A model generated the notes under the pieces. That model was given only the letters and a program-made list of their open reading frames with translations. It searched no databases and was not told the DNA's origin. Made by a program: the position numbers and the translations under genes. This document shows positions 1,661-7,176 of a stretch of 8,199 bases of DNA, piece by piece. How positions within the stretch are numbered: the stretch's first letter is position 1; each line of letters opens with the position of its first letter. The stretch is from Nocardioides sp. (GTDB taxonomy: Bacteria > Actinomycetota > Actinomycetes > Propionibacteriales > Nocardioidaceae), in assembly GCA_023252065.1 (NCBI GenBank), contig JAHEXO010000066.1, positions 1 to 8,199 on the forward strand. Reading direction: 5' to 3'.

Positions 1661-1666
1661 ACTCTA
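1661..1666 (-). promoter_or_regulatory. Candidate internal -10 box for hisA-hisF (leaderless)
   Basis: The minus strand reads TAGAGT, then six bases (CGCCGG), then the hisA GTG. This TAnnnT box includes the TAG stop codon of the upstream kinase-like gene. The spacing is identical to that of the hisD and LON-domain gene boxes in this window, so a transcript would begin at the start codon itself. No clear -35 box is seen. There is no obvious Shine-Dalgarno sequence in the nine-base gap, which fits a leaderless start. Confidence 0.45.
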
Positions 1667-2203
1667 GCGACGCGGCGAGCGCAGTCGGGTGGGTGTCTCG
1701 CCGCGTACGGCGACGACGAGGTCGTCGAGAGCCACCGGTCCGCTGGTGTCGACCACGACCGTCCGCGGTGCACCCAGCGCCTCGGGACGGGCGGCGGCGT
1801 CACGCACCCGGGCCAGCATCTCCTCGTCGGCAGGCAGGTGTGGCAGGCCGCGGCTCCGCGCGGCGTACCGCTGGGCCGCGAGGTCGGGCGGCACCTGGCA
1901 GCGGACCTCGACCAGGGTCGGCCACCAGGGGCGGAGCAGCCCCGAGACCCGCTCGACGTCGCGCCGGGGAGCCACCCAGATGTCGACGACAGCCTCGCCG
2001 TCGACGCCCTCGAACCGCCGGACCAGCTCGGCCTCGGCGTCCTCGCGCAGCCAGTGGCGGGGCGTGTCCGGGGCGTCGGCCGCCAGCTCCTCCTTGATCT
2101 CGTCGAGGGACACCAGGGCACAGCCGAGACGCTCGGCCAGCGCCACCGACAGCGTCGACTTGCCTGCGCCGGGTGCCCCGGTGACGACCACGAGCCGGTT
2201 CAT
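1664..2203 (-). CDS. P-loop ATP-binding protein, small kinase-like (function unknown)
   Basis: This is a 179-residue soluble protein with a Walker A motif near the N-terminus, VTGAPGAGKST (residues 7-17). An SLDEIKEEL segment (about 32-40) follows, where small nucleotide or sugar kinases carry an acidic catalytic residue. The size, single P-loop and mid-protein VVDIWVAP strand (about 73-80), followed by an Arg-rich stretch around 113-118 that could form a lid, fit the broad AAA_33/zeta-toxin/chloramphenicol-phosphotransferase-like kinase group. No specific substrate can be read from the sequence. The ATG at 2201-2203 overlaps the stop of the small membrane protein gene (ATGA), so the two are probably co-translated. 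A longer frame reaching back to 2398 exists but would run through the membrane protein gene. It sits inside the his operon between hisH and hisA, but nothing links it to histidine synthesis except position. Confidence 0.85.
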   Translation of the reverse strand: MNRLVVVTGAPGAGKSTLSVALAERLGCALVSLDEIKEELAADAPDTPRHWLREDAEAELVRRFEGVDGEAVVDIWVAPRRDVERVSGLLRPWWPTLVEVRCQVPPDLAAQRYAARSRGLPHLPADEEMLARVRDAAARPEALGAPRTVVVDTSGPVALDDLVVAVRGETPTRLRSPRR

Positions 2204-2680: not shown

Positions 2681-3310
2681 TCACAGCGAGTCCACCCAGT
2701 TGCGGAGGAGAGCGGCGCCGGCGTGACCGGACTTCTCGGGGTGGAACTGGGTCGCCGAGAGGGGGCCGTTCTCGACCGCGGAGACGAACCGGTCGCCCCC
2801 GTGCTCCGACCAGGTCACCAGCGGCGGGCGGGTGTGGCCTTCGGTGCGCAGGTCCCACGTCCGCGCGGCGTAGGAGTGGACGAAGTAGAACCGCTCGTCC
2901 TCGAGCCCGGCGAAGAGCCGCGAGCCGGTGGGCACCTCGACGGTGTTCCACCCCATGTGCGGCACGACCGGCGCCTGCAGCCGCTCCACGACGCCCGGCC
3001 ACTCGTCGCAGCCCTCGGTCTCGACCCCGTGCTCGGCCCCGCGGGCGAACAGGATCTGCATGCCGACGCAGATGCCGAGCACCGGCCGACCGCCGGCGAG
3101 CCGCCGGTCGATCGCGCGCGGACCGTCGACCGCGCGGAGCCCCGCCATGCATGCGGCGAACGCTCCGACCCCGGGTACGACGAGCCCGTCGGCCGCCTCG
3201 GCGGCGTGCCGGTCGGCGGTCAGCTCGACCGACGCACCGGCCCGCTCCAGAGCGCGCACCGCGGAGCGGAGGTTCCCCGACCCGTAGTCGAGGACGACCA
3301 CGCTCGTCAC
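2681..3310 (-). CDS. hisH: Imidazole glycerol phosphate synthase glutaminase subunit HisH
   Basis: HisH is the class I glutamine amidotransferase that releases ammonia from glutamine and channels it to HisF. With a GTG start at 3308-3310 the protein has 209 residues, the normal length, and opens with the family signature [13 protein letters not shown]. The catalytic triad is visible: Cys81 in GICVGMQ, and His190 and Glu192 in QFHPEKS. VPGVGAF (45-51) is the oxyanion-side loop, and the VPHMGWN and FVHSYAA segments are typical. An upstream frame to 3409 overlaps hisB and is not needed. The gene begins 28 bases after the hisB stop, with no strong ribosome binding site, so it may depend on coupling to translation through hisB. 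That matters because hisB carries a stop codon. Confidence 0.95.
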
Positions 3311-3338: not shown

Positions 3339-3938
3339 TCAAAGGGATCCCTTGGTGGAGGGCACCCCGGTCTCGCGAGGGTCGATCGCCACCGCGTCGC
3401 GGAACGCACGGGCGAAGGCCTTGAACTGCGCCTCCACCAGGTGGTGAGGGTCGCGCCCGGACAGCACCCTGACGTGCACGGCGATCTGCGCGTGGAAGGC
3501 GAGCGTCTCGAAGACGTGCCGGGTCAGCGACCCGGCGTAGTCGCCACCGATCACGACGTAGGCCTGCCCGTCGGGCTCGCCGACGTGGACGCAGTAGGGC
3601 CGGCCGGACACGTCGACCGCGCACTGCACGAGCGCCTCGTCGAGCGGCACCATCGCGTCGCCGAACCGGCGGATGCCGGCCTTGTCCCCGAGCGCCTCGC
3701 GCAGGGCCTGGCCGAGCACGATCGCGGTGTCCTCGACCGTGTGGTGGGCGTCGATGTGGGTGTCGCCGTCGGTGGTCACGGTGAGGTCGACCAGGGAGTG
3801 TCGTGCGAACTACGCCAGCATGTGGTCGAAGAACCCCACCCCGGTCGAGACGTCGGAGCGGCCCGAGCCGTCGAGGTCGACCGTGACGTGGACCTTGGAC
3901 TCCTTGGTCTCGCGGTCCAGGCTGGCCGTGCGGCTCAT
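3339..3938 (-). pseudogene. hisB: Imidazoleglycerol-phosphate dehydratase HisB, interrupted by an in-frame amber codon
   Basis: HisB removes water from imidazole glycerol phosphate to give imidazole acetol phosphate, using two Mn ions. The frame starts at ATG 3936-3938, overlapping the hisC stop, and would give 199 residues, the normal actinobacterial length. Metal-binding motifs are all present: DHML (38-41), DAHHTVEDT and DPHHLVEAQ, and the usual C-terminal STKGSL. However, codon 43 (plus-strand 3810-3812) is TAG. The protein reads [20 protein letters not shown], where the family normally has Gln after MLx. The parts on either side are in the same frame, so a single C-to-T change (CAG to TAG; plus-strand base 3812) explains it. 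The 42-residue product would be inactive. Restarting at the GTG at 3777-3779 would give 146 residues lacking DHML. It could be a true null mutation, a sequencing error or a suppressed codon. Confidence 0.9.
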
Positions 3939-5020
3939 GTCCGTGCCTCCGTGTCCGTCACCGAGCTGAGTGCGTCCCTGAATGCTGCCATCTCCGCCGG
4001 CGTGCCGATGGAGACCCGCAGCCATCCGTCTGGCCCGGTCTCGCGGACGAGCACACCGCGGTCGAGCAGACCCTGCCAGACGGCGTGCCGGTCGGCGAAG
4101 TGACCGAACAGCGCGAAGTTCGCGTCGCTGTCGGCCACCGTGAACCCCTGCGCCCGCAACCACTCGACGCATCCGTCGCGCTCGGCCCGCAGGTCGTCGA
4201 CCCGGCCGAGGAGCTCGTCGGCGTGCCGGAGGGCGGCCAGCGCGACCGCCTGGGTGACCGCCGACAGGTGGTAGGGCAGCCGGACGACCCGCAGGGCGTC
4301 GCAGACCTCGGTGGAGGCGGCGAGGTAGCCGACCCGGGCCCCCGCCAGGGCGAACGCCTTGCTCATCGTGCGGGTCACGACCAGGTTGGGGTGGCGGGGC
4401 AGCAGCTCCAGCGCGCTGGAGGTGCCGGCGCGGCGGAACTCGGCGTACGCCTCGTCGACCACCAGCACTCCGTCGTCCAGCGCCTCGCACAGGACCGTGA
4501 CGGCCGACAGCGGGAGAGAGGTGCCGGTCGGGTTGTTCGGCGACGGCAGCAGTACGACGTGGGGTCGCCGCTCGCGGACCAGCGCGACCGCGCGGTCGAC
4601 GTCGAGCGTGAAGTCGTCCTCGCGCCGGCCGGTCTCCCAGGTGGTGTGGGTGTCGCGGGCGTACTCGGGATACATCGAGTAGGTCGGGGCGAAGCTCAGC
4701 GCCAGCCGGCCCGGTCCACCGAAGGCCTGGAGGAGGTGGAGCATCACCTCGTTGGAGCCGTTGGCGGCCCAGACCTGCCCGGCGGTGACGCCGTGGCCGA
4801 GGTAGTGCGCCAGCGCTTCGCGCAGCGCCACGAACTCACGGTCGGGGTAGCGGTTGAGGTCGCGCGCAGCCTCGGCGACGGCGCGTTCGATGTCCGCGAC
4901 CACGGCGGCCGAGGGCGGGTAGGGGTTCTCGTTGACGTTGAGCAGGACCGGGACGTCGAGCTGCGGTGCGCCGTAGGGCTCGATGCCGCGCAGCTCGTCC
5001 CGCAGCGGCAGCGGCGTCAT
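3935..5020 (-). CDS. hisC: Histidinol-phosphate aminotransferase HisC
   Basis: HisC is a PLP-dependent class I/II aminotransferase that transfers the amino group from glutamate to imidazole acetol phosphate, giving histidinol phosphate. The 361-residue protein has the usual length and order of motifs: an N-terminal [10 protein letters not shown] substrate segment (28-37), a NRYPD loop (56-60), an ANGSNE cofactor phosphate-binding segment (86-91), SPNNPTG (160-166), VVDEAYAEF with Asp189 and Tyr192, [13 protein letters not shown] with the PLP Lys221 and Arg229, and RVSIGT with Arg335 for the substrate carboxylate or phosphate. The ATG at 5018-5020 overlaps the hisD stop by 4 bases, and its own TGA overlaps the hisB ATG. 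It is intact. Some HisC paralogues act on aromatic keto acids, but the operon context favours histidine synthesis. Confidence 0.97.
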
Positions 5021-6312
5021 CCGGGAAACCGGACCTGCACGGCGGCGCCGTGGCCCGGCAGGTCCTCGGCCTCGGCCAGGGTGACGACGTGGTCGGCCAC
5101 CTCGGCCAGGGCGTCGCGGGAGTAGTCGACGACGTGCACTGCCTTGAGGAACGACCGCACCGACAGCCCCGAGGAGTGGCAGGCACAGCCCGCCGTGGGC
5201 AGCACGTGGTTGGACCCGGCGCAGTAGTCACCGAGCGACACCGGCGCGTAGGGCCCCACGAAGATCGCGCCGGCGTTGTGGACCCGGGCCGCGACGGCAG
5301 CCGGGTCGGAGGTGTGGATCTCGAGGTGCTCGGCGGCGTAGGCGTTGATGACCTCCAGGCCCTGCTCGAGGTCATCGACCAGCACGATGCCCGACTGCCG
5401 CCCACCGAGGGCGGTGCGGATCCGCTCGGTGTGTCGGGTCGCGAAGACCTGCTTGTCGAGCTCGGCCTCGACCTCGTCGGCCAGCCGGAGCGAGTCGGTG
5501 ACCAGCACGCTCGCCGCCTGGGGGTCGTGCTCGGCCTGGCTGACCAGGTCGGCGGCGACGTACGCCGGGTCGGCGGTGTCGTCGGCGAGGATCGCGATCT
5601 CGGTGGGGCCGGCCTCCGAGTCGATCCCGATCCGGCCCTTGAGCAGGCGCTTGGCCGCGACCGTGTAGATGTTGCCCGGACCGGTGACCAGGTCGACGCG
5701 CGCGCACTCCCCCGCGCCGTAGGCGAACATCGCGATCGCCTGCGCACCGCCGACGGCGTAGACCTCGTGCACCCCGAGAAGCGCGCAGGCGGCCAGGATG
5801 GTGGCGGCCGGAAGCCCGTCGTTGTCCCGGTGCGGCGGGCTGGCCAGAGCGATCGAGGAGACACCCGCGACCTGGGCGGGCACGACGTTCATCACCACGC
5901 TGGAGACCAGCGGAGCGATCCCGCCGGGTGCGTAGAGCCCCACCCGCCGGATCGACACCATCCGGTGGGTGACCGTGGCGCCGGCACCGAACGAGGTGGT
6001 CACGTCGTGCTCGAGCTCGGCCTCGCAGCTGTGGCGCAGGCGCGAGATCGACTCCTCCAGCCCGGCCCGTACGGCTGGGTCGAGGTCGGCCAGCGCCCGG
6101 TCGAGCGACTCCTGCGGCACTCGCAGGTGCTTCGGTGCGACCCCGTCGAACCGCAGGGAGAGCTCCTCGATCGCCTCGACCCCGCGGGCGCGGACGGCCT
6201 CGCAGATCGGTCGGACCGCCTCCACCGCCGCATCCACGTCGAGCTCCGCGCGCGGTACGACGTCGCGGTAGTCCGCGGGCGCGCTCCCACGCAGGTCGAT
6301 TCGCCGGATCAT
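5017..6312 (-). CDS. hisD: Histidinol dehydrogenase HisD
   Basis: HisD is a zinc enzyme that oxidises L-histidinol to L-histidine in two NAD-dependent steps, the last reactions of the pathway. The 431-residue protein is full length. Visible motifs are RVGLYAPGG (123-131), [13 protein letters not shown] (187-199), [14 protein letters not shown] (209-222), DSEAGPTE (231-238), SQAEHD with Gln259 and His262, AEHLEI with Glu328 and His329, [13 protein letters not shown] with Asp362 and His369, and a C-terminal His421. These match the zinc and substrate residues known from E. coli HisD. The ATG at 6310-6312 is the first gene of the cluster. It has a -10 box six bases upstream and no Shine-Dalgarno sequence, so the message is probably leaderless. 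Its stop overlaps the hisC start. Confidence 0.97.
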
Positions 6313-7048: not shown

Positions 7049-7066
7049 GCGCGCAGCCGTTGGGCC

Positions 7067-7130
7067 GTTGCCGCTGGTTGAGCAGGGCGCTCTGCGCTGT
7101 TGCCGCTGGTTGAGCAGGGCGCTCTGCGCT
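7067..7130. repeat. Two identical 32-base tandem units
   Basis: Units at 7067-7098 and 7099-7130 are identical base for base. Each starts GTTGCCGCTGGTTGAGCAGG and ends GCGCTCTGCGCT. A third, diverged start of the unit follows at 7131 and leads into the full palindrome at 7139-7176. The units look like truncated copies of that element, because they share the GCTGGTTGAG lead and the GGGCGCTC core but lack the CTCGAAACCA end. Confidence 0.85.
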
Positions 7131-7138
7131 GTTGCCGC

Positions 7139-7176
7139 TGGTTGAGGAGGGCGCTCCTGCGCCCGTCTCGAAACCA
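7139..7176. repeat. Palindromic intergenic repeat (REP-like, TGGTTGAG...CTCGAAACCA)
   Basis: The outer arms TGGTT and AACCA and then GAG and CTC pair around an inner stem GGGCGC (7149-7154), TCCT loop, GCGCCC (7159-7164). Together they form one long imperfect hairpin. Elements with these ends are, from memory, common between genes in Nocardioides and some other actinobacteria. The position between two convergent gene ends is typical for such repeats. Confidence 0.75.

Follow-up and report, generated by a model that had tools for sequence, protein, structure and literature searches.

The hisB gene of the histidine cluster studied here is interrupted at codon 43 by an in-frame amber codon, which we read, with a probability of roughly 0.48, as an isolated single-base artefact of the contig, located where a functional hisB formerly had a serine codon. 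On this reading it would be the base call that is at fault and not the allele, in that the serine codon would have become TAG in the consensus either through an error or through the inclusion of a rare variant, while the population of the organism would keep an intact hisB and would not be auxotrophic for histidine. This probability, as well as the likelihoods worded below for the other explanations, is a judgement and was not computed. The preliminary description had posed the choice as one between an error and a real null, which is the right framing for an isolated TAG in a constrained gene, and the codon is probably ordinary in either case (i.e., as a sequence error or as a young broken allele).

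The window (i.e., the whole stretch of 8,199 nucleotides of Nocardioides sp. DNA that was analysed, apparently one entire contig) carries hisB, encoding imidazoleglycerol-phosphate dehydratase, on its minus strand, running from position 3938 down to 3339 over 199 codons. Codon 43 reads CTA on the plus strand at positions 3810–3812, and thus TAG on the minus strand, where the stop had indeed been placed. Except for this TAG the frame is open, and when the stop was taken as a residue the translation matched the NCBIfam HisB model NF002110.2 from end to end (model positions 1–199; 331.9 bits vs. a curated cut-off of 266), so that both flanks do share one frame of normal length. Membership of this family was reached only with the TAG read as a residue.

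The remainder of the cluster is intact as well, as had been proposed, with hisD (5017–6312), hisC (3935–5020, overlapping the start of hisB by 4 bases), hisH (2681–3310, starting 28 bases behind hisB), hisA/priA (917–1654, above the cut-off of TIGR01919), and hisF (159–920) all open on the minus strand and carrying a terminal stop only. The minus-strand order is hisD-hisC-hisB-hisH-(small gene)-(kinase-like frame)-hisA/priA-hisF, in which the small gene (2200–2523) and the kinase-like frame (1664–2203, minus strand, with weak family matches of which none is above cut-off) lie within the his cluster, from hisH to hisA. Elsewhere in the window, a 32-base unit occurs three times in tandem (7061–7156 and 7139–7175; copies 91–100% alike) between a Lon-like gene and the next gene, and this array terminates in a TGGTTGAG...CTCGAAACC stretch, a pattern that was found in none of 96 loci, mostly loci around hisB. 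At Rfam gathering scores, no RNA element was detected in the window.

The TAG had been explained by one C-to-T transition at position 3812 from a CAG codon, on the premise that homologues mostly have Gln at this position, and relatives support neither point. Among the best 120 proteins listed, column 43 of HisB is Ser in 111, Ala in 8, Thr in 1, and Gln in none, and in 36 aligned Nocardioidaceae loci the residue is Ala in 19 and Ser in 17 (encoded by GCC in 13, TCG in 12, GCG in 6, and TCC in 5). These 36 loci were picked from 96, as those titled with Nocardioidaceae genera or as Nocardioidaceae bacteria together with the genus genomes L081–L094, from which only two known duplicates were taken out, so that further duplicates may remain. 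A contig scan yielded at least 591 stretches, at least 571 of which were confirmed and 80 kept. The solved chain 7fcy_A has Ala aligned to codon 43. Judged from these alignments, the simplest origin of the TAG would be one transversion inside a serine codon, which would suffice. Since no Gln occurs among these relatives, the proposed check for a G at position 3812 probably aims at the wrong base, and the case is a caution in that the residue expected for the protein family (Gln) misfits this genus.

The expected Gln does have a counterpart further afield. E13, H39, H47, H65, H66, and E69 of the window's HisB correspond to E21, H47, H55, H73, H74, and E77 of Arabidopsis IGPD2 at an offset of 8 that is constant across all six residues, which equates codon 43 with Gln51 of the plant enzyme, one of the residues hydrogen-bonded to phosphate according to the available text of PMC4509728. 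At the level of sequence, the DHMLxQ pattern invoked in the preliminary description therefore fits the plant enzyme at least, and not the genus of the contig. An amber that is a real and tolerated allele, with Gln inserted at this phosphate-binding position (Gln in Arabidopsis, Ser or Ala in the genus) such that HisB would be throttled and not lost, strikes us as very improbable.

The sequence of hisB shows no clear sign of decay. In the 36-locus comparison, none of the 92 HisB positions that are invariant in the other rows was altered, and dN/dS against the six nearest loci was 0.073–0.159 (Nei-Gojobori with Jukes-Cantor), in agreement with the earlier suggestion that selection has acted on the whole protein until very recently or still does. 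The part 3′ of the TAG had a pN of 0.019–0.074 (pS 0.26–0.49), and the 42 codons 5′ of it a higher pN of 0.090–0.172 (pS 0.21–0.39), while T19, present in 1 of the 120 closest listed proteins, was the lone unusual residue besides the TAG. For the other genes, altered invariant positions numbered 2/159 in hisD, 1/127 in hisC, 0/80 in hisH, 0/118 in hisA, and 3/136 in hisF, which brings the six his genes together to 6 private changes over 712 invariant positions; these changes fall inside the range of the other loci, although for hisC, hisD, and hisF they exceed the median. Since the nearest genomes are distant (with aligned pieces ca. 83% identical), such constraint measures average over a long time and show only that any loss is recent. 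That HisB is constrained like the product of a living gene favours the artefact. Likewise, the unaltered invariant positions and the low pN 3′ of the TAG make it most doubtful that hisB is an old pseudogene whose role is now filled by another hisB copy or by uptake of histidine, the more so because hisB is usually present in a single copy (see below).

Should the TAG be real, little function would be expected to survive it. The 42 codons ahead of the stop (3813–3938, minus strand) contain E13 and H39, which by motif spacing equal the catalytic E21 and the Mn1 ligand H47 of IGPD2, and H65, H66, and E69 lie behind it at the spacing of H73, H74, and E77; the presence of the catalytic Glu and of the metal-binding His and Glu residues was judged by this spacing at these five positions, which precede the later ligands H145, H169, H170, and E173. 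The first in-frame start 3′ of the TAG in the list of open reading frames is a GTG at codon 54, from which a product of 146 amino acids (3339–3779, minus strand) would be made that lacks E13, H39, and H47 (E21, H47, and H55 in IGPD2, the last of these a phosphate ligand) and that on its own scores 249.2 bits against NF002110.2 (i.e., below 266). A restarted or two-fragment HisB was rejected since residues 43–53 would be in neither piece, including R46, H47, and D51, which are identical in all 120 closest listed proteins.

A real and very recent nonsense mutation, after which HisB would stop after 42 residues, dehydratase would be absent, and external histidine would be required in a cluster that has not yet decayed, is a substantial possibility, to which we assign somewhat less than an even chance. 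In its favour are the deficient restart product, the inactivity of the E21Q variant of Arabidopsis IGPD2 (as given in the available text of PMC4509728), and the apparent accuracy of the contig elsewhere (see below). Against it, the 36-locus comparison revealed no second sign of decay, and a null allele would have to dominate the sampled population in order to reach the consensus.

The stop is not shared by the relatives compared either. The genus of the contig was inferred from these relatives, in that the best-matching genomes belong to the genus of G002 (with a locus titled Nocardioides islandensis). An internal stop occurs in none of 150 hisB matches listed for 215 genomes of this genus, nor among the matches listed from 98 genus genomes overlapping with those 215, nor in any of the 36 aligned Nocardioidaceae loci. 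Protein databases, for their part, cannot reveal such stops. Of the 215 genomes, 209 have one hisB match, four have two (in G001 and G177 as overlapping pieces on two contigs), and two have none, so that hisB is single copy as a rule and no additional copy would be expected to rescue the function. Intact hisB is thus found throughout the genus, and its retention in 213 of the 215 genomes, together with the lack of internal stops in the 150 listed matches, again favours an artefact and speaks against a recent null. The two genomes without a hisB match (G151 and G173) also had only weak hisC matches (5.7e-67 and 3.6e-46), reflecting either incompleteness of the assemblies or genuine auxotrophy for histidine in these members of the genus.

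No near-identical sister strain emerged for hisB among the 215 genus genomes (best match 94% at the protein level) or for hisC among 341 family genomes (best match 87%). In the protein database, near-identical HisC was present at 99% in two JGI contigs (P0169 and P0170; largest contigs of the records 5,542 and 1,559 bases), at 97% in an NCBI Nocardioides metagenome-assembled genome (P0171; largest contig 29,555 bases), and at 96% in P0172 (from a record with a largest contig of 273,391 bases). A protein search with the 146-amino-acid fragment revealed no match above 96% identity among the best 120 of 8000 scored, and this is weak evidence since the database is clustered at 90% and the window's own fragment is absent from those 120, though the window's HisC is listed in its own search. 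A near-identical intact or truncated HisB may hence be hidden in one of the clusters, e.g., in P0003 with its 109 members. Among the proteins listed, P0126 is a HisB of 150 amino acids (93% identity; largest contig of the record 9,024 bases) that starts at the GTG of the window's restart frame, and is possibly a second interrupted hisB, with a contig end or a mispredicted start as the alternatives. P0002 is a HisB of 317 residues with a long tandem-repeated stretch on a contig of 1,130 bases, and is possibly an assembly artefact.

The quality of the contig bears on the choice between artefact and mutation from two sides. Compared with five HisC proteins that are 95–99% identical, the window's HisC has a single private residue (V176, where the other proteins have Ala in 112/119 and Val in 2/119), indicating that the contig is not noisy. 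Moreover, of all one-base substitutions across the six his genes, 2.1% are computed to create a stop and 71% to be missense, so that numerous missense changes should accompany the TAG if there were many random errors, which leaves one isolated event, be it an artefact or a mutation. The clean contig, with one private HisC residue, 6/712 pooled changes, and no other internal stop, and the fact that just one isolated error is left to account for the TAG thus disfavour an artefact. Nevertheless, the TAG was selected for study as a stop, and a single isolated error is therefore enough.

Closer to the TAG, the preliminary description had suspected poor local quality on the grounds of three neighbouring codons with less GC-rich third positions, and this point holds weakly for GCA and CGA and fails for TTC, which ends in C. 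Codons 45 and 46 (GCA and CGA; 3801–3806, minus strand) are each matched at their position in 1 of the 36 loci, lie within 11 bases of the TAG, and belong to the 8 of 199 hisB codons that end in A or T, none of which is situated 5′ of codon 45. For at least two such codons to fall among the six that lie closest to the TAG, the p-value is ca. 0.02 by a test chosen after looking, and the CGA of codon 46 recurs in one locus, L081, which belongs to the genome whose hisB is closest, a fact that weakens the argument. Given this sharing and the post hoc test, the rare A-ending pair adjoining the TAG leans slightly towards a poor local consensus, and to that extent favours the artefact. The latter is further favoured by precedent, since 28 of the 73 interrupted genes examined in Mycobacterium smegmatis were sequencing errors (PMC1852416, 2007, in its available text).

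Finally, the TAG might be real and partly read through, by a suppressor tRNA or by near-cognate decoding, with a reduced level of HisB, which we consider unlikely. Near-cognate decoding of UAG can insert Gln, the residue that occupies this position in Arabidopsis IGPD2, and constraint on both sides of the TAG would be in line with readthrough. However, the kinase-like frame of the same cluster ends in TAG, so that this codon apparently serves for termination, and no tRNA gene lies within the window. PylS was above cut-off in 0 of 209 genus genomes and in 1 of 14 control genomes, and the PylS C-terminal model gave weak matches in 31 of the 209 while matching 13 of 14 in the control set. The base directly 3′ of the hisB TAG is a T, a context that is not known to be leaky.

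The meaning of the TAG is small unless reads prove the allele real, in which case it would show, in an actinobacterium, either a loss of histidine synthesis caught at a very early stage or a candidate case of natural amber suppression. Conserved in-frame stops under purifying selection have been reported in bacteria (PMC7918605), and the hisB TAG resembles them in lying inside a constrained gene; according to the available text of that study, however, stops were retained there only when present in at least two genomes, whereas the hisB TAG is present in one contig only, with none in the 36 loci or the 150 listed matches, which argues against readthrough. A further likeness is to the interrupted coding sequences (ICDS) of, e.g., M. 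smegmatis, where the available text of PMC1852416 likewise describes a gene that is conserved apart from a single interruption, due to either an error or an authentic mutation, although hisB here carries a nonsense codon without a frameshift, in a contig that is probably metagenomic. The protein itself is of the NF002110.2 type represented by 7fcy_A and 4gqu_A, to which residues 2–199 align when the TAG is read through, and it differs from that type in having a stop at codon 43.
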